From positions 1 to 62,238 of the forward strand of contig VGHK01000010.1 of NCBI GenBank assembly GCA_016868305.1: a DNA stretch of 62,238 nucleotides, written 5' to 3'. A program made the position numbers and the translations under genes. The notes beneath the pieces are model-generated. The model was not told where the DNA came from and made no database searches. It was given only the letters and a program-made list of their open reading frames with translations. This stretch comes from Betaproteobacteria bacterium (GTDB lineage Bacteria > Pseudomonadota > Gammaproteobacteria > Burkholderiales > Burkholderiaceae_A). Shown here piece by piece: positions 35,166 through 46,579 of this stretch (positions within the stretch are counted from its first letter, which is position 1; each line of letters starts with the position of its first letter).

Positions 35166-36356
35166 TTAGTCAAAAATACCCAGATACGCCTCGGCCAAGG
35201 CCGTTTGTAGGGCATGCGAGCTGGCAAGGGTGTTGAACTCTGCGGCCTGAATGCGCCGGTCAAACAGGGTCTGGCCATCAAACTTATGCAGCAGGCTCGT
35301 CATCCACCAGGAAAACCGTTCCGCCTTCCAGATGCGCGCTAGTGCCAGCTCTGAATACCCATTTAGGCGGTCTTCCGACCCTTTTGTGTAGAAGGTGATT
35401 AGCGCCTCGGACAATACCCGAATATCGGCCACTGCCAGGTTCAGTCCCTTAGCCCCGGTGGGCGGTACGATATGCCCCGCATCCCCGGCCAGAAATAACC
35501 GACCAAACTGCAGAGGTTCGGCAACAAAGCTGCGCAATGGCGCAATGCTTTTTTCAAGCGATGGGCCGGTAGACAAGGCCGAAGCTCGGTCAGGCCCAAG
35601 CCTTCGGGCAAGCTCTGCCCAGAAACGGTCGTCTGACCAGTTTTCTACCCGATCTTCAAGGCTGCACTGCAGGTAGTACCGACTCCGTGTCGGCGAGCGC
35701 ATGCTGCAGAGATAGAAGCCGTCTGCATGGTTGGCATAAATCAGTTCGTGAGACACGGGCGGCACATCAGCAAGCAGGCCCAGCCAGCCAAAGGGATAGG
35801 TGCGCTCTATTTCGTGCAGCCTTCCGGTGGCCTTTGCGGCAGCCCGACAAACCCCATGATAGCCATCGCAGCCAATCACAAAGTCTGCATGGAGTTGATG
35901 AGACACGCCGTCCAGACTGTAGGAAACACTCGGGGTGGCGGACTCGAAGTCATGAATTGCAACCGACGACGCCTCATATACCGTAGGGGCACCCGAGGCC
36001 TTGCGGGCCTGCATCAGGTCACGGGTTACTTCTGTTTGGCCATAGACCATCACCGAGCGGCCCGTTAGGCCTTTGAGGTCAATGCGCAGCGGGGGAGTAT
36101 CTTCGTAGATAAGCGAAAAGCCATCATGGGGCAGGCCCTCAGCCTGCATGCGGGTGCCAAGCCCAATCTCGTTTAGAAAAGAGACGGTCGCGTCCTCAAG
36201 CACCCCAGCCCGTATACGGGCGGCAACATGGTCTGCCGATTGCCTTTCAATAACCACGGTATCGATACCCGCCAGACCCAGTACATGGCCTAGCAGAAGC
36301 CCGGAAGGACCGGCCCCCACAATAGCCACTTGGGTAGAACGCGAAGTCTGCATCAA
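35166..36356 (-). CDS. pobA: 4-hydroxybenzoate 3-monooxygenase
   Basis: A 396-residue FAD hydroxylase converting 4-hydroxybenzoate to protocatechuate with NADPH and oxygen. The dinucleotide fold GAGPSG is at 14-19, the RIRAGVLE segment and the second FAD motif GDAGHIVPPTGAKGLNLA (usual GDAAH has Ala to Gly) are present. The final product enters the pca genes located upstream on the same strand. A start one codon later (MQTSR) is possible. Confidence 0.95.
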   Translation of the reverse strand: MMQTSRSTQVAIVGAGPSGLLLGHVLGLAGIDTVVIERQSADHVAARIRAGVLEDATVSFLNEIGLGTRMQAEGLPHDGFSLIYEDTPPLRIDLKGLTGRSVMVYGQTEVTRDLMQARKASGAPTVYEASSVAIHDFESATPSVSYSLDGVSHQLHADFVIGCDGYHGVCRAAAKATGRLHEIERTYPFGWLGLLADVPPVSHELIYANHADGFYLCSMRSPTRSRYYLQCSLEDRVENWSDDRFWAELARRLGPDRASALSTGPSLEKSIAPLRSFVAEPLQFGRLFLAGDAGHIVPPTGAKGLNLAVADIRVLSEALITFYTKGSEDRLNGYSELALARIWKAERFSWWMTSLLHKFDGQTLFDRRIQAAEFNTLASSHALQTALAEAYLGIFD

Positions 36357-36389: not shown

Positions 36390-37679
36390 CTAGGTTGAAC
36401 CAATGACTGCACGACAGCTCCCCAGACCAATACGTGTCGCGGATGCATTCTGACAAAAGCCGGTAATCTCTATCGCATCGCCGTCTTCAATAAACCGCCG
36501 AGTCTCACCGGACGGCAGGGTTAATGCCTCTTTTCCGCCCCGGGTAAGCTCCAACAACGACCCCGCCTCACTACTGTCAGGACCACTCATAGTACCCGAA
36601 CCAAGCAGATCGCCCGACCGCATCAGGCAGCCATTACTGGAATGATGCGTAATCAACTGCGCCATAGTCCAGAAAGAATACTTCAGGTTTGTCTTTGCTA
36701 GCACATGCGGCGACAGATTGCGGGCCCGCATCTCTGCTGACTGGATGCTGATCTGCAGATGCAGGTCGATACCGCCAGCCTGCTGGTTTTCCGGATCTGT
36801 TAAGTAGGGCAACGGCGCTGGGTCATCCACCGGGCGGGTATAGGGCACGCGAAAGGGCGCAAGGGCCTCCCGCGTGACAATCCAAGGCGACAGGGTGGTG
36901 GCAAAGTTCTTCGACAGAAAAGGCCCCAGAGGCTGATATTCCCAAGACTGAATATCCCGGGCGGACCAGTCATTTAAAAGGCACAGACCAAAAAAATGGT
37001 CTTCGGCCTCCGCGATCGGAATGGGAACGCCAGGAGCATTTCCTGCCCCCAGAAAAAAACCCACCTCAAGCTCAAAATCCAGCTTCTGACAAGGACCAAA
37101 CACCGGTGGACCCTCCGCGGGCTTGATCTGCCCAGACGGCCGGGGAATGTCACCGCCTGAGACCTGCAGGGTAGAGCTGCGGCCGTGGTAGCCGATAGGC
37201 ACCCACTTGTAATTCGGGAGCAGCGGATTGTCCGGTCGAAAAAGACTGCCCACTGACGTAGCGTGATGGATCGAAGTATAAAAATCCGTGTAGTCCCCAA
37301 CCGTGCAGGGCATCACCATACGCGCCTGAGACTGCGGCACCAGGCAGCCCTGAACACGGGCTGCATCGCCTTGGCCATTTTTAGACAAGATGGCCGTAAG
37401 GCGCGCGCGCACCTGCTGATGGTATTTCTTGTGCAAGGCCATGAAGGCATTTAAGTCACCGGCTGCCAACGGTGCAAAGGCTGCCGACTCGTCGGCCGGG
37501 ATTGGTATCGCCCGAACAAGGGCACCAAGGTCGAGAATCTGATCGCCGATTGCAACGCCGAGTCGCGGATCCGCCTGGTCTAAGCCCGTTGGCATAAAGC
37601 GGCCAAAGGGCAGGTTTTCAATCGGAAACTCCGACTCAGGATGATTAGCCGAGGCCACCCAGCTGCCACGGGTCTTCAT
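36390..37679 (-). CDS. fahA: Fumarylacetoacetase
   Basis: A 429-residue FAH-family hydrolase that splits fumarylacetoacetate to fumarate and acetoacetate in tyrosine/homogentisate breakdown. The catalytic histidine is in CTVGDYTDFYTSIHHATSVG. Substrate and metal sites are in PIGYHGRSSTLQVSGG, LDFELEVGFFLG and LCLLNDWSARDIQSWEYQPLGPFLSKNF. It overlaps the VOC gene start-side by four bases. Homogentisate dioxygenase and maleylacetoacetate isomerase genes are not in the window, so its substrate in this cluster may differ. Confidence 0.93.
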   Translation of the reverse strand: MKTRGSWVASANHPESEFPIENLPFGRFMPTGLDQADPRLGVAIGDQILDLGALVRAIPIPADESAAFAPLAAGDLNAFMALHKKYHQQVRARLTAILSKNGQGDAARVQGCLVPQSQARMVMPCTVGDYTDFYTSIHHATSVGSLFRPDNPLLPNYKWVPIGYHGRSSTLQVSGGDIPRPSGQIKPAEGPPVFGPCQKLDFELEVGFFLGAGNAPGVPIPIAEAEDHFFGLCLLNDWSARDIQSWEYQPLGPFLSKNFATTLSPWIVTREALAPFRVPYTRPVDDPAPLPYLTDPENQQAGGIDLHLQISIQSAEMRARNLSPHVLAKTNLKYSFWTMAQLITHHSSNGCLMRSGDLLGSGTMSGPDSSEAGSLLELTRGGKEALTLPSGETRRFIEDGDAIEITGFCQNASATRIGLGSCRAVIGST

Positions 37680-38215
37680 GCGTTTGCCATGGTTCCGTCA
37701 TGCATCCATCGGGCATGGGCAGGCGCCTTTTTGGTCTGCGCCCATTCGTTGAGCATGTCCCACTTCACCGTGTCGAGCATGCGCATCATCTCTGGCGTGC
37801 CAGTATCTACGGCAAGCTCGAGCCGATGCCCATTGGGATCGAAAAAATAAATCGACTTGAATATGGTGTGATCTGTAGGCCCAACAACTGCAATGCCGTC
37901 TGCCTCTAGCCGCGCCTTTGTCTGTAACAAGGTGTCGATCGAATCGACTTTCATTGCCAGATGCTGCACCCAATCGGGCGTATTGGTATCGCGGCCCATA
38001 GGAGGACTATTGGGTAGTTCAAAAAAGGCAAGAATGTTGCCTTCGCCCATGTCGAGAAACACATGCATATAGGGATCTGGCGCCTTGGTGGAGGGTACCT
38101 GGTCTTCGGCAATCGCCAACACAAACTTCATATTCAGATACTTCTCATACCACTGGACAGTCTGCTTGGCATCAATACAGCGATAGGCAACATGGTGCAG
38201 GCGTTGTATCTTCAT
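37676..38215 (-). CDS. VOC-superfamily protein (glyoxalase/dioxygenase-like)
   Basis: A 179-residue vicinal-oxygen-chelate protein from ATG 38215 (AAGGAGA upstream). Metal ligand candidates are the histidine in LHHVAYR, the one in WVQHLAMKV, and the glutamate in HRLELAV, the usual VOC arrangement. Such proteins may be isomerases, lyases or ring-cleavage dioxygenases. Position between the FAD hydroxylase/DUF2783 genes and fumarylacetoacetase suggests it acts on an aromatic-ring intermediate, but this is inference. Confidence 0.85.
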   Translation of the reverse strand: MKIQRLHHVAYRCIDAKQTVQWYEKYLNMKFVLAIAEDQVPSTKAPDPYMHVFLDMGEGNILAFFELPNSPPMGRDTNTPDWVQHLAMKVDSIDTLLQTKARLEADGIAVVGPTDHTIFKSIYFFDPNGHRLELAVDTGTPEMMRMLDTVKWDMLNEWAQTKKAPAHARWMHDGTMANA

Positions 38216-38225
38216 CGTGTTCTCC

Positions 38226-38507
38226 TTATACGTCTGGCAGTGCCGCAGCATTAATCGCCTGCCTAAGCACGGGAAGGCTGCCAATATGATTAGCAAGAAT
38301 GAGCACCAGGCGGGCGTTGAAGGCATGACTCTCTGTTTCAGAGAGATTGGCATGGGCTGCGATCAGCGCCTCATAAAAATCGTCACCCGCGCTGTAGCCA
38401 TAAAAATAGGTCTTCTGCGGGTTAGAAAAATGGCTCTCGGTAATAAGCTCTGCTTGTTGCACGGCATCCTTGCCTTCCATCATCATCGTGTCTCGGTTGG
38501 TTGTCAT
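38226..38507 (-). CDS. DUF2783 domain-containing protein
   Basis: A 93-residue cytosolic protein. The DUF2783 core is DDFYEALIAAHANLSETES followed by NARLVLILANHIGSLPVL. No catalytic motif. Start is uncertain: ATG at 38507 lacks a good ribosome site and internal ATG codons at residues 8-10 are possible. It sits 6 bases after the FAD hydroxylase and 10 before the VOC gene, strongly suggesting it acts with that enzyme. Confidence 0.8.
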   Translation of the reverse strand: MTTNRDTMMMEGKDAVQQAELITESHFSNPQKTYFYGYSAGDDFYEALIAAHANLSETESHAFNARLVLILANHIGSLPVLRQAINAAALPDV

Positions 38508-38513
38508 GGTGCG

Positions 38514-40313
38514 TTAGTGCGAAAGATGCCCCAGCGCCCGCCGGTATGCCGCCGCGATATCAGACTGACTGGGCCTGCGCCAACGGGCTGCCACATGCTG
38601 GTCTGGACGCATAAGATAGACAGAACCCGGCTTAAGATCGTATCTTTCGGCAAGACATTTCTTGCAATCGAGAATGTGATTCACGAACGACGCTCCGGCA
38701 TGGTCTGCTACGGCGGTAGGGGCAAATGACGCGGCACCGCGGGCTTTTTCACCCTCAACTAACCCAAGGTCATGCACCACTAGTACGCGCAGGTCGATAA
38801 CGCCGGCCGCGTTTAAAGATTCGGCCCAGGCGGTAATGTCTTCGAGCACCTTCTGCGCATCCGGCTCCTGGCTCGCAGCAGCCATTACGACAAAGCTTCC
38901 ACCCAGGTAACGAAGCAGCCAGTCTGAGGATGACGAATCTGTTTGTGGGTTTTGCCCGCGGTCGTTTGACGCCGCCGAAAAATTGAATCGCTCAACAGGT
39001 GCATCGTCTGCAGGTGCACCGGGAATCATTCGGCCGGCAAAAACATCGCCGGCCCGATCGGGGGTATTCAGTGGCGATTGCGCATGAAACGTTGGCACGG
39101 AGAGCCTTCCGGAGTTCACTAGGCCGCGCGCGAAACCGAGATTGTGAGCGAGCTGCAAAACAGAGTCTCGAAAAAGTCGGCTAACGGGTGACTTTGGGGT
39201 AATGAAATCGGTTGACCGCGTGGAGTTGAGAATGTTTTCATCCGCCGCCTCGGTACGCTCTGCATCATAAGTATCTAATAAAGCCTGCGGGGCTTTACCC
39301 GAAAGAACCGCCGCAAGCTTCCAGCCCAGGTTATCAATATCCTGAATTCCCGAGTTTGCGCCCCGCGCCCCAAAGGGCGATACCTGATGGGCCGCATCCC
39401 CCATAAAGATCACTTGGCCATGGCGAAACTGGGCCATGCGCCGACACTGAAAGGTGTAGACACTCACCCATTCAAGCTCAAACGCATGGTCTGGGCCGAG
39501 CATTGCCTGAATGCGAGGGATTACCTTTTCGGGTTTTTTCTCTTCCTCAGGATCGACATTCCAGCCCAACTGAAAGTCGATGCGCCAGACATTATCAGCC
39601 TCGCGATGCAGCAGCACCGACTGATTCGGATGAAACGGCGGGTCGAACCAGAACCAGCGCTCAGCAGGGAAGTCTGCCTTCATGACCACATCGGCAATCA
39701 GAAACCGGTCCCGAAAGACTCGGCCCTCGATATCGAGCCCCAGCATGCGACGGACCGGAGATCGGGCACCATCGGCGACCAGCAGCCAGTCGCAGGAAAC
39801 ATGGTAGCTGCCATCAGGGGTCTGCACCTCTATCTGCGCGCAAGCCTCGTCTCTTGCCACAACGACCACCTTGTTCTGCCATCGAATCTCAAGGCATGAG
39901 AGCGCCCGGGCGCGCGTAAGCAAGTATTCCTCCAGGTAGTACTGCTGCAGATTCACCATTCCCGGAAACTGATGGTCGGGCTGGGGAAGAAGGTCAAAGC
40001 GATAGACCTCGTGTTCAGCCAAAAAGGTACGCCCCACGTTCCAGGAAACCCCCTTGCTGCAGACGGGGCCCGCTGCACCTAGGCGGTCGAGAATCTCAAG
40101 GGTGCGCTTGGCGTAGCACAGGCCACGAGATCCTACCGATACCGTATTGTCATCATCAAGAAGCAACACTGGTATGTTGCGCTGGGCCAAGTCTATGGCG
40201 CACGACAACCCCACCGGCCCGGCGCCTACCACCACTACCGGCCGATGGATGGTCTGGCCAATTTCGGCAGCCCCCGAGTTCTCAAACTTAGGATAGGTGT
40301 AGGTGGAAAGCAT
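38514..40313 (-). CDS. FAD-dependent aromatic-ring hydroxylase (MhpA-like)
   Basis: A 599-residue flavoprotein monooxygenase. ATG 40313 is favoured; a start at 40358 would overlap the MBL gene. The FAD fold is VVVVGAGPVGLSCAIDLAQRN, the second motif FMGDAAHQVSPFGARGANSGIQD, and a DG motif is in LVADGARSPVRRMLGL. The C-terminal thioredoxin-like domain of phenol-type hydroxylases is present (from about 470). Similar proteins hydroxylate 3-hydroxyphenylpropionate or other phenols. The substrate here is not known. Confidence 0.88.
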   Translation of the reverse strand: MLSTYTYPKFENSGAAEIGQTIHRPVVVVGAGPVGLSCAIDLAQRNIPVLLLDDDNTVSVGSRGLCYAKRTLEILDRLGAAGPVCSKGVSWNVGRTFLAEHEVYRFDLLPQPDHQFPGMVNLQQYYLEEYLLTRARALSCLEIRWQNKVVVVARDEACAQIEVQTPDGSYHVSCDWLLVADGARSPVRRMLGLDIEGRVFRDRFLIADVVMKADFPAERWFWFDPPFHPNQSVLLHREADNVWRIDFQLGWNVDPEEEKKPEKVIPRIQAMLGPDHAFELEWVSVYTFQCRRMAQFRHGQVIFMGDAAHQVSPFGARGANSGIQDIDNLGWKLAAVLSGKAPQALLDTYDAERTEAADENILNSTRSTDFITPKSPVSRLFRDSVLQLAHNLGFARGLVNSGRLSVPTFHAQSPLNTPDRAGDVFAGRMIPGAPADDAPVERFNFSAASNDRGQNPQTDSSSSDWLLRYLGGSFVVMAAASQEPDAQKVLEDITAWAESLNAAGVIDLRVLVVHDLGLVEGEKARGAASFAPTAVADHAGASFVNHILDCKKCLAERYDLKPGSVYLMRPDQHVAARWRRPSQSDIAAAYRRALGHLSH

Positions 40314-40333
40314 GATGAAGAAATCTTTACTAC

Positions 40334-41299
40334 TTAATCTTCTTGCAGGGCGTGCCACATTTCCTGGTCGCGCTGCGCCGTCCAGATGCGTGGATGGCTA
40401 ATGCCCTTTGCCTCATCTACGGCCCGCGTGACATCAAAGGGCAGGCAGTGTTCATAGATAAAGACCTGGGCAAACTTCGGATCCATCGACTGTCGAATAT
40501 GCTTCATGGCACCCTTGAGATCGAGCCCTTTGGCCACCGCCTCTTGGGCGCCTTTATAGAGCGTGGAAACAAAGTCTTCGGTGTAGGCAAGACCCTTGGC
40601 CACTTCTTGCGGATTCATAAGCGCGGGGCCGCGACCAGGAACCAGCTTTTCTGCCTGCATGGCACGGAGGTTTCGTAAGGTTTGTGGCCACTCGGCCAAA
40701 TGAGCATCTCCGGTATAGCAGGCGGCATCGGCCTCCACCAGATCGCCTGAGAACAAGACCTTATCTTTGGGTAGCCAGGCGACGGTGTCCCCTTTGGTGT
40801 GACCAGCGCCGAGTTGCATGATCTGTACCTCCAGCCCGCCCATAAAAAGCGTCATACGCCTCTGAAAGGTGAGGGTTGGCCAGGTGAGCCCTGGCACTGA
40901 CTCTACCGCCTGGAACAAACGGGGAAACCGCGCGATCTCTGAGTCCATGTCTTGCTGGCCGCGCTCAGCGATCAGGTCGTAGGTGTCTTGGCTTGCAATG
41001 ATCTGCTGCAGCCCATGCTGCTTAAAGCCTGAGGCACCCAGTACGCGAACCGCATGGTAGTGGGTAAGCAACACGTACTTAATGGGTTTATCGGTGATCC
41101 TGCGAATCTCAGCGACCACCTTCTGGGCCATCACCGGCGTTGCAGTGGCATCGATGATCATTACGCTGTCATCGCCAACGATAACTCCAGTATTGGGATC
41201 TCCCTCGGCGGTAAAGGCCCAGGCATGTTCGGAGAGCTGTACGAAGCTTGTCTGCTTCTCTTCAAGGTCTGCCTGCGAGGCGAATTTCTTTTCGGTCAT
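40334..41299 (-). CDS. MBL-fold hydrolase with incomplete metal site
   Basis: A 321-residue metallo-beta-lactamase-fold protein. The usual HxHxDH motif is HYHAVR here (THYHAVRVLGAS), lacking the Asp and last His. Later ligands GAGHTKGDTVAW (His) and FSGDLVE (Asp) are kept. The last His motif (PGHG) reads PGRGPAL. At most one metal site seems complete. It is directly upstream of the FAD hydroxylase and presumably serves the same route. Confidence 0.82.
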   Translation of the reverse strand: MTEKKFASQADLEEKQTSFVQLSEHAWAFTAEGDPNTGVIVGDDSVMIIDATATPVMAQKVVAEIRRITDKPIKYVLLTHYHAVRVLGASGFKQHGLQQIIASQDTYDLIAERGQQDMDSEIARFPRLFQAVESVPGLTWPTLTFQRRMTLFMGGLEVQIMQLGAGHTKGDTVAWLPKDKVLFSGDLVEADAACYTGDAHLAEWPQTLRNLRAMQAEKLVPGRGPALMNPQEVAKGLAYTEDFVSTLYKGAQEAVAKGLDLKGAMKHIRQSMDPKFAQVFIYEHCLPFDVTRAVDEAKGISHPRIWTAQRDQEMWHALQED

Positions 41300-41384: not shown

Positions 41385-42749
41385 CTAGCCCATGCGGTCA
41401 TAGGCATCCAATACCCGATCAACAAAGTCTGTACTAACGCCAAGATAGGCAAGCGGCGACAACCAGGCAGCGAACTGCTCGGGCGTCGCAAGACGAGAAG
41501 CCTCGGCGTCTTGAAGCAAAGCCTCTTCAAGGGTCTGGCCCTGGTCCGTCGCCTGTCGGCTTAGCCTTTCCAAAAGCGCATGCGCGGCTATCTTACCAAT
41601 CTGGGGCGCCAGACCAAAGGCTACCGACTCTGCCATAACCAGGCCCTGACTTAGATCAACATTGGCGCGCATGGTCTGCGACCGAACCTCAAGCCCCGCC
41701 AAGAGCGCCACAGACTGCTGCAACGCACTCTCGGTACCCTGCAAAATCTCTGGCATCGCCTGCCACTCCGCCTGCCAACCGCCCAAAGCACGTTCGTGCT
41801 CCTGCGGCAAGGCCGATGCAAGAACGCCTAGTAGCCCGGGCAGAAATGTAGCCTGCGTAAGGATGGCTGCGCAGTGCACGGGATTGCGCTTGTGCGGCAT
41901 CGTTGACGACCCCCCTTTGCCAGGCGCTGCGCCCTCCCGCAATTCAGCGACCTCGGTCTGGGCCATGAGCGACACATCCTTGGCAATTTTGCCTAACGAC
42001 CCCGTCAGACCCACCAGCACTGAGGCCAGGGAAAAAACACGGTCACGATGCCCAAACCATGGCAAGTTAGGTTCATTCAGACCGAGAATCTGGGCCAAGA
42101 GACGCGAGACCTTCGTACCGTCCTTTCCCAGGCTCGCAAGGCTTCCTGTGGCGCCGCCAAACTGCAAGACTCGCGTCTCTTCACGCACAGCCTCGAGTCG
42201 CTGCGCATGACGCATCAGCGCATCGAGCCAGCCAGCAGCCTTAAGGCCAAAGGGTATTGGAAGGGCATGCTGCATCCAGGTACGGCCGATCATCGGCGTG
42301 TCGCGATGGGCCCGGGCCAGCGATGCGACATGCTGCATAAGGACTCTTAACAAGCCTTCACACCGAATAAGGTCTTGCTGCCAGACCAGAACCGCTGCAG
42401 TGTCTAGAATGTCCTGGCTGGTGGCTCCAAAGTGCACATGTTTCGCAGCCTCGGCATCCGCCTGCGCCACCTGGGCAGTTAGTTTTTTTACGAACGGAAT
42501 CGCGATGTTGCCGGCAAGAAGGCTGTCTGTCTCTAGCTGATCAGGGTCTAAACAAGCCGGCTGCTGGGAAAGCGCCTCGCACACCTGCGGGATTATCTCG
42601 GCACTCTTGGGCGCAATCAGCCCAAGCTGCCCCTGGGCCCGCGCAAGCGCTGCCTCCACAGACAGCATTTGTCGAAGAAGCCTATGGGCATAGGGCTCAC
42701 CACCGAAGGATTCACTATGTCTTTCGGGAAGAATGGATGTATTGACCAT
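41385..42749 (-). CDS. pcaB: 3-carboxy-cis,cis-muconate cycloisomerase
   Basis: A 454-residue fumarase/aspartase-family enzyme that lactonises 3-carboxy-cis,cis-muconate. The family signature GSSTMPHKRNPVHC, the substrate block HFGATSQDILDTA and RTWMQHALPIPFGLKAAGW are clear. It follows pcaJ with an 18-base gap in the pca operon. Confidence 0.94.
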   Translation of the reverse strand: MVNTSILPERHSESFGGEPYAHRLLRQMLSVEAALARAQGQLGLIAPKSAEIIPQVCEALSQQPACLDPDQLETDSLLAGNIAIPFVKKLTAQVAQADAEAAKHVHFGATSQDILDTAAVLVWQQDLIRCEGLLRVLMQHVASLARAHRDTPMIGRTWMQHALPIPFGLKAAGWLDALMRHAQRLEAVREETRVLQFGGATGSLASLGKDGTKVSRLLAQILGLNEPNLPWFGHRDRVFSLASVLVGLTGSLGKIAKDVSLMAQTEVAELREGAAPGKGGSSTMPHKRNPVHCAAILTQATFLPGLLGVLASALPQEHERALGGWQAEWQAMPEILQGTESALQQSVALLAGLEVRSQTMRANVDLSQGLVMAESVAFGLAPQIGKIAAHALLERLSRQATDQGQTLEEALLQDAEASRLATPEQFAAWLSPLAYLGVSTDFVDRVLDAYDRMG

Positions 42750-45267: not shown

Positions 45268-45882
45268 CTAAAGATCGAAGAAGACTGTCTCCTTGGGCCC
45301 CTGCATATGAATGTCAAACCGCCATGCATGCGATCCTCGTGACGAGTCTCTGCGGGCCAGCAAGGTCGATCTTCGGTCTTCGGGCACCGCCCGAAATACC
45401 GGATCGTTCACGAGTAAATCAGACTCGTCCTCAAAATAGGCCCGCGTAAAGCAGTGGGTCAGGAGCCCGCGCATAAACACAGTAAGGTGCAGACAGCTTG
45501 CGGCCTGGCCAGGCGCCCTGCCCGGGCGAATCGTCTGAAAGGCATACAGGCCATTGGCCAGCGTACCAGTGCCAGATCGACCAAACCCTCTAAACACAGG
45601 GTCTAGGGCCCGGCCGGTATCGCGGCCCTGGGCATCGCACTGACTCAGCTCAATGAGGGCATCGGTGATCGGCTGCCCTTGTCCATCAAAGACCTGGCCC
45701 ATCAGCAGCAGAGGCTCGCCTGGGCAGTCTGGGCTCGTTAGCGTTGGCCCAAAGAGATCTGGCAGGTCGAACCCATACTGTGCTGGCGACAGGCCATAGG
45801 CAAAGTACGGCCCAACAGTCTGTGACGGTGTCTGACCGAGACTCTGCCCGGGGTTCAGACCCCTCGCAATACGGTTACTCAT
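45268..45882 (-). CDS. pcaG: Protocatechuate 3,4-dioxygenase alpha subunit
   Basis: A 204-residue subunit from ATG 45882, overlapping the pcaH stop region by eight bases. QTPSQTVGPYFAYGL at the N-terminus and FDIHMQGPKETVFFDL at the C-terminus are typical of PcaG. It lacks the Fe ligands, which sit in PcaH. Confidence 0.94.
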   Translation of the reverse strand: MSNRIARGLNPGQSLGQTPSQTVGPYFAYGLSPAQYGFDLPDLFGPTLTSPDCPGEPLLLMGQVFDGQGQPITDALIELSQCDAQGRDTGRALDPVFRGFGRSGTGTLANGLYAFQTIRPGRAPGQAASCLHLTVFMRGLLTHCFTRAYFEDESDLLVNDPVFRAVPEDRRSTLLARRDSSRGSHAWRFDIHMQGPKETVFFDL

Positions 45883-46579
45883 CGCCCTTACCCCGCAGCA
45901 CAATGTCAAAGTAGTAGCCCAGGGCAAATCCCTCACGCGTCTCTTCTAGCGCGAAGTCCGCCACCAGCCTGTTGCGTGCTTTTTCTGGAACCTCTAAATA
46001 AATGGGGTCGTAAGCCAATAAGGGGTCGCCGGGAAAGTACATCTGGGTCACCAGACGGCAGGGCATCGCCTGGCCAAAGAGCGAGAAATGCAAGTGTTGT
46101 GGCCGCCAGGCATTGGGATGATTGCCCCAGGGATACGCCCCGGGCTTAATAGTGAAAAACTCATAGCGGCCATGGGCATCAGTAAGACAACGGCCCGCCC
46201 CCAAAAAATTAGGGTCTAACGGCGCGTCATGCTGGTCTACCGTATGCACATAGCGGCCGGCGGCATTAGCCTGCCAGAGCTCGACAAGGGTATGGGCCAG
46301 TGGGCGACCTTGCGTGTCCAGTACGCGGCCGACAACACGAATCCGCTCTCCAAGAGGCTCTCCATTGCGTCGGGCATTGCGGGTGAGATCGCGGTCGATG
46401 TCTCGAAGCCCGTCGAGCCCAAACACGGGCACCGATGGCTCACCAAGTCTGCTAGGCACGACCACCAGTGGCTTCTGCGGTCCCCGGGTAAGGGTCGATT
46501 TATAACCGGGAGCCTGATAAGGAGGGTGAGACTGCCAGTCTCGCGAGATCAGGGCAGTTGGCGCAGAAAGGTTTGTCAT
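45875..46579 (-). CDS. pcaH: Protocatechuate 3,4-dioxygenase beta subunit
   Basis: A 234-residue iron-bearing subunit of the intradiol dioxygenase that opens protocatechuate. Iron ligands are visible: tyrosines in AGRYVH and GAYPWG, and two histidines in RPQHLHFSLFG. ELWQANAAGRY and VGRVLDTQGRPLAHTLVE are standard. First gene of the pca run; divergent from aroQ. Confidence 0.96.
   Translation of the reverse strand: MTNLSAPTALISRDWQSHPPYQAPGYKSTLTRGPQKPLVVVPSRLGEPSVPVFGLDGLRDIDRDLTRNARRNGEPLGERIRVVGRVLDTQGRPLAHTLVELWQANAAGRYVHTVDQHDAPLDPNFLGAGRCLTDAHGRYEFFTIKPGAYPWGNHPNAWRPQHLHFSLFGQAMPCRLVTQMYFPGDPLLAYDPIYLEVPEKARNRLVADFALEETREGFALGYYFDIVLRGKGDE

Follow-up and report, generated by a model that had tools for sequence, protein, structure and literature searches.

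Which pathway is served by an aromatic-degradation cluster that encodes a hydroxylase and a fumarylacetoacetase and carries no hmgA, the gene for the cupin homogentisate 1,2-dioxygenase? The question is raised by a stretch of 62,238 nucleotides from a Betaproteobacteria bacterium (assembly GCA_016868305.1, contig VGHK01000010.1, positions 1 to 62,238; the whole stretch is called the window here), in which a minus-strand set of five genes at 41299-36390 encodes, in order of transcription, a metallo-beta-lactamase (MBL) fold protein, a flavin adenine dinucleotide (FAD) hydroxylase, a DUF2783 protein, a VOC protein and a fumarylacetoacetase. Based on sequence comparisons, a structural model and the distribution of the genes among genomes, we consider it very probable that the cluster is a homogentisate operon in which the ring is cleaved not by a cupin but by the VOC protein, fed by an MhaAB-like hydroxylase. 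The five genes are as follows.

40334-41299, minus strand: MBL-fold hydrolase with a degenerate metal site (HYHAVR, PGRG); PF00753, 57.7 bits; second-site residues replaced
38514-40358, minus strand: FAD hydroxylase, MhaA-like (3-hydroxyphenylacetate 6-hydroxylase large component); NF006002, 778 bits, and PF01494
38226-38507, minus strand: DUF2783 protein, putative MhaB-like small hydroxylase partner; PF10932, 82.5 bits
37676-38215, minus strand: predicted VOC-type homogentisate 1,2-dioxygenase; match to 9U42, complementarity with hmgA, and H8, H85 and E133 invariant
36390-37679, minus strand: fumarylacetoacetase (fahA/hmgB); TIGR01266, 507 bits against a cut-off of 375

The likely start of the hydroxylase is an ATG at about 40313, inside the open reading frame (ORF) 40358-38514, and the 225-residue VOC ORF as listed starts 5' of its probable start, the 179-residue form agreeing with the homologues. 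With these revised starts, only the VOC and fumarylacetoacetase genes overlap, by 4 bases, and about 6-20 bases separate the genes at each of the other joints; the presence and close packing of five genes reported in the first-pass annotation are thus upheld, but not its description of several overlaps. The five-gene set occurs again in further genomes, which indicates more than a chance arrangement.

In the proposed pathway, the MhaA-like flavoprotein and its DUF2783 partner would convert a hydroxyphenylacetate (HPA), most likely 3-HPA hydroxylated at C6, to homogentisate, the ring of which would be opened by the 179-residue VOC enzyme to give maleylacetoacetate. MaiA, encoded elsewhere, would then form fumarylacetoacetate, and the fumarylacetoacetase of the cluster would release fumarate and acetoacetate. 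Homogentisate derived from tyrosine via HPPD would presumably share the same VOC and fumarylacetoacetase enzymes. The sequence of hydroxylation, ring opening by the VOC protein and hydrolysis suggested in the first-pass annotation is well supported, but the path, there left unassigned, appears to be the homogentisate pathway, since the hydroxylase pair fits MhaAB and the VOC protein is homologous to a deposited homogentisate 1,2-dioxygenase.

The VOC protein and the occurrence of hmgA

The assembly to which the window belongs (2.26 Mb, 97 contigs, 97.45% complete) gave no match to the cupin HmgA models TIGR01015 and PF20510 and none to the gentisate 1,2-dioxygenase model TIGR02272. A single hppD lies on another contig (C27:26148-27176), and therefore the cell can form homogentisate from 4-hydroxyphenylpyruvate. 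A maiA gene, the only one of seven matches above the cut-off (216 bits against 171), was located on yet another contig (C6:21312-21947), with a peptidase S15 gene before it and a DctM gene further down. By these profile matches, isomerase and hydrolase are present in the genome and no cupin dioxygenase was found. The absence of a homogentisate dioxygenase noted at first pass is thus correct for cupin HmgA, throughout the assembly, but not for the function, which most likely resides in the VOC protein; likewise, a maleylacetoacetate isomerase is lacking from the cluster but not from the genome. Finding both hmgA and maiA elsewhere had been named as a result that would speak against an unassigned route; maiA was found, whereas hmgA was not by either model.

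The top sequence match of the VOC protein is PDB entry 9U42 (239 bits, residues 3-175 of 179), released on 2025-07-23 under the title "Crystal Structure of Homogentisate 1,2-Dioxygenase from Acinetobacter in Complex with Zn ion". A model of the VOC protein built from a 52-row alignment (pLDDT 77.5; a single-sequence fold with pLDDT 43 was set aside) also had 9U42 as its top structure match, with a VIA Z of 18.1, 165 aligned residues, a root-mean-square deviation of 2.4, 59% identity and a Foldseek TM of 0.80 (by query), the next structure reaching a Z of 15.4 at 20% identity. Residues H8, H85 and E133, which we take to be the usual metal positions of the VOC fold, were invariant in 52 of the 52 rows and kept in nine of nine sequences that included two distant members, and the metal is probably held by His8, His85 and Glu133. 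Homology and modelling make homogentisate 1,2-dioxygenase the most likely function of the VOC protein. Gene neighbourhoods had given the same assignment independently of the 9U42 title and before it was seen; public records name such genes just 'VOC family protein'.

The distribution of the gene was examined in an order-level sample of 250 genomes, with a close VOC defined as a match of 290 bits or more. A first count gave 16 genomes with hppD and neither hmgA nor close VOC; when it was redone with PF20510, a divergent hmgA was found in 11 of them, and all seven loci read around hppD (L109-L115) carry such a gene, missed by TIGR01015. In total, close VOC was present in 29 genomes, hmgA of either type in 60 and hppD in 68. 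Close VOC occurred in 19 of the 24 genomes with hppD and without hmgA, compared with 5 of 44 that had both genes, 2 of 16 with hmgA and no hppD, and 3 of 166 with neither. The contrast of 19/24 versus 10/226 gives a Fisher p of 4.6e-17, a value made too small by kinship among the genomes. In nine of the 29 genomes, VOC lies within 6 kb of hppD. A class-level sample of 223 genomes, 220 of them outside the order, was counted by hand: VOC was found in four of six genomes with hppD and without hmgA (G264, G370, G374 and G397) and in one further genome (G380), never together with hmgA; the G370 match was scored with two stops, and an open 179-residue ORF spans it. In these samples, VOC mostly stands in for hmgA where homogentisate can be formed, with the exceptions given below. 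As a separate observation, the short divergent HmgA, 23-27% identical to the classical protein and detected by PF20510, adjoins hppD or a hydroxylase gene in L109-L115, L124 and L125.

Gene neighbourhoods were surveyed over 9 kb around VOC in the best 80 of 584 relatives in the genome collection, tblastn matches overlapped by a better one being dropped before loci were counted; in 37 loci (counted by hand) the sequence to one or both sides of VOC is shorter than 9 kb, and absences there are soft. The FAD hydroxylase was found in 46 loci, DUF2783 in 30, MBL in 27, maiA in 21 and hppD in 6, with short-type fumarylacetoacetase in 31 and long-type in 28, whereas hmgA was found in one (L089), a figure unchanged when divergent hmgA was added as a query. 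Several operons read as hppD-fumarylacetoacetase-VOC-maiA (L152), hppD-VOC-fumarylacetoacetase-maiA (L153) or hppD-VOC-fumarylacetoacetase (L154); an Ideonella plasmid carries hppD-VOC-fahA, and an A. baumannii plasmid fahA-maiA-VOC with hppD near by. The Acinetobacter enzyme of 9U42 is, like the window protein, a single-module VOC of about 180 residues (59% identity over 165), and its relatives lie beside fahA and maiA, with hppD close by as well on one plasmid; the window VOC, in contrast, sits with an MhaAB-like hydroxylase and without linked hppD or maiA. On a conjugative Enterobacter plasmid (L017), transposase genes flank VOC, an MFS transporter gene, a fumarylacetoacetase gene and maiA.

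A more distant VOC subfamily (L127-L134), 46-55% identical to a Neorhizobium VOC, was present in nine of the 250 order-level genomes, and in all five genomes that had hppD but neither hmgA nor close VOC; in two of these five it lies near a separate FAD hydroxylase of its own (L130 and L131). It is conceivable, though rather improbable, that in Proteobacteria VOC enzymes commonly replace HmgA and have mostly been overlooked in this role, with more than one subfamily doing the job: four of the nine genomes have hmgA, the distant VOC was not found beside hppD or a fumarylacetoacetase gene in the stretches read, and two class-level genomes have neither VOC nor hmgA. If true, members of the VOC superfamily would have been recruited to para-hydroquinone cleavage on repeated occasions, and every 'missing hmgA' in the order-level sample would be explained.

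The hydroxylase pair and its substrate

The FAD hydroxylase carries the GAGPVG, DG and GD motifs. Its identity to the hydroxylases of L157 and L158, two loci from the same family, is 63% and 62%, and to that of L122, which adjoins DUF2783 (53% in tblastn) and hmgA, 55%; relative to the L122 protein, additional segments are present towards the C-terminus, at about residues 455-470 and 533-550. DUF2783 directly follows the hydroxylase in five annotated plasmid clusters. According to PMC3053370, P. putida U converts 3-HPA to homogentisate with MhaA, a flavoprotein of 566 residues, and MhaB, a coupling protein of 60 residues, and homologues in Paraburkholderia xenovorans LB400 (47% and 35% identical) adjoin the homogentisate-cleaving genes hmgA1B1C1. 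The window cluster resembles these mhaAB-hmgABC systems in its large FAD hydroxylase with a small partner, both longer than MhaA and MhaB (about 600 and 93 residues), but differs in having VOC for hmgA, an extra MBL gene and an unlinked maiA. By analogy in gene order and genomic company, the hydroxylase and DUF2783 proteins probably correspond to MhaA and MhaB.

Among 38 main-clade hydroxylase genes in the order-level sample (770 bits or more), 12 lie within 6 kb of VOC, 11 (two in G028) within 6 kb of classical hmgA and none near both, so that 23 have the setting expected of MhaAB; of the 15 near neither, six lie no more than about 1 kb from a divergent hmgA. On a tree of 66 hydroxylase ORFs (those below 480 residues or 400 bits were dropped, and the window hydroxylase was not a row), the five partner labels, one of which is 'none', require nine changes and the VOC label alone four; partner genes have therefore been swapped more than once. 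A second deep FAD hydroxylase clade was also seen beside VOC, in 11 loci (L034, L038, L043, L045, L056, L064, L067, L077, L081, L090 and L018); no DUF2783 match was found in ten of these, all but L018, which forms a long branch in the tree and is of unsure placement.

Clusters similar in part were located on plasmids. Those of the Alphaproteobacteria Gemmobacter, Sinorhizobium, Dinoroseobacter and Roseomonas share MBL, hydroxylase, DUF2783 and a fumarylacetoacetase-type gene with the window, but have cupin HmgA and no VOC, and maiA is linked in three, the Dinoroseobacter stretch being the exception. A Sphaerotilus sulfidivorans plasmid has MBL-FAD-DUF2783-VOC-fahA in the same order as the window, except that a tripartite tricarboxylate transporter binding-protein gene lies between DUF2783 and VOC.

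The substrate of the pair would, by analogy with MhaAB, most likely be 3-HPA rather than 4-HPA. It is possible, with a smaller but appreciable likelihood, that the pathway is the same and that the pair acts on 4-HPA, by 1-hydroxylation and side-chain shift, or on 2-HPA. The sources cut both ways: Cupriavidus JMP134 channels all three HPA isomers into homogentisate (PMC8449657) and other bacteria are reported to 1-hydroxylate 4-HPA (PMC3053370), whereas P. putida MhaAB accepts 3-HPA and not 4-HPA (PMC10983741) and a known 2-HPA hydroxylase is a P450 (PMC8449657).

Other readings of the cluster

A homogentisate operon could also be built with the VOC protein as a glutathione-free maleylacetoacetate isomerase and another enzyme opening the ring. 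VOC folds catalyse isomerisations, and maiA is absent both from the window cluster and from the stretch shown of the Sphaerotilus cluster. However, maiA lies within 9 kb of VOC far more often than hmgA does in the neighbourhood survey, and its presence in several VOC operons means that VOC is not needed there as an isomerase; the distribution of VOC complements that of hmgA, and the title of 9U42 says dioxygenase. This role is very improbable. Still less probable is a gentisate route, chemically parallel and with gentisate named at first pass, in which the hydroxylase would form gentisate, VOC would open the ring and the hydrolase would cleave fumarylpyruvate, as the genome gave no gentisate dioxygenase, the hydrolase matches the fumarylacetoacetase equivalog TIGR01266 and VOC accompanies hppD, whose product is homogentisate.

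Several observations weigh against a homogentisate operon with VOC as the ring-cleavage enzyme. The evidence taken from the deposited Acinetobacter enzyme is a sequence match and a title, the latter naming a Zn-bound form; and maiA is unlinked, lying on another contig and 41% identical to Enterobacter MaiA. In the order-level sample, hmgA is also present in seven of the 29 genomes with close VOC, five of the 24 genomes that have hppD and no hmgA carry the distant VOC only, away from hppD and fumarylacetoacetase genes, and for nine of the 38 hydroxylases neither VOC nor a classical or divergent hmgA lies close by. L089 carries VOC and hmgA in one cluster, and two of the six class-level genomes with hppD and no hmgA (G303 and G337) lack VOC as well.

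Neighbouring genes and significance

The MBL gene was present with the FAD hydroxylase in 26 of the 27 VOC loci that have it, and therefore appears to track the hydroxylase more than VOC. We aligned 48 locus ORFs (kept if above 250 bits and 260 residues) with the window's own, giving 49 sequences. All 48 readable sequences retain the HxH pair and all 49 a later His and Asp, whereas HYHAVR and GRG replace HxHxDH and the last His, presumably the dinuclear-site ligands of the metallo-beta-lactamase superfamily; R85 and R223 occur in 49 of 49 and V84 in 48, with one unread. PF00753 thus supports the fold but the residues of a dinuclear site are not present, and the protein may hold one metal. As a guess, it might free hydroxyphenylacetate from an ester or thioester.

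Genes on the same strand continue beyond the cluster on both sides: upstream are protocatechuate dioxygenase genes, pcaDC, pcaIJ and pcaB, and downstream pobA and genes for a TRAP transporter; the stretch therefore appears to handle several hydroxyaromatics. The two immediate neighbours are as follows.

35166-36356, minus strand: pobA, 4-hydroxybenzoate 3-monooxygenase; TIGR02360, 587 bits against a cut-off of 539
41385-42749, minus strand: pcaB, 3-carboxymuconate cycloisomerase; TIGR02426, 367 bits against a cut-off of 356

Two overlapping ORFs listed at 45268-46579 resemble protocatechuate 3,4-dioxygenase, the downstream one matching only weakly (45.7 bits). A scan that found 4 promoters against 8.9 expected and 21 terminators against 17.1 expected was of no help.

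An enzyme of this kind is already deposited and the chemistry is known, so that the result is a useful gene assignment and not a new pathway. In the open-licence literature, we found no paper tied to a VOC homogentisate dioxygenase or to 9U42, no pairing of an MhaAB-like hydroxylase with a VOC dioxygenase and no account of VOC as a wide stand-in for hmgA; a term search of the text of the GapMind paper (PMC9007349) did not find 'homogentisate'. DUF2783 gains a likely role as the small partner of a hydroxylase, and the clusters provide cases in which the exchange of two unrelated dioxygenases behind a single lineage of hydroxylases can be tested. In the order-level sample, 24 of the 68 genomes with hppD have no hmgA of either type, and the VOC enzyme would close the pathway in 19 of them.

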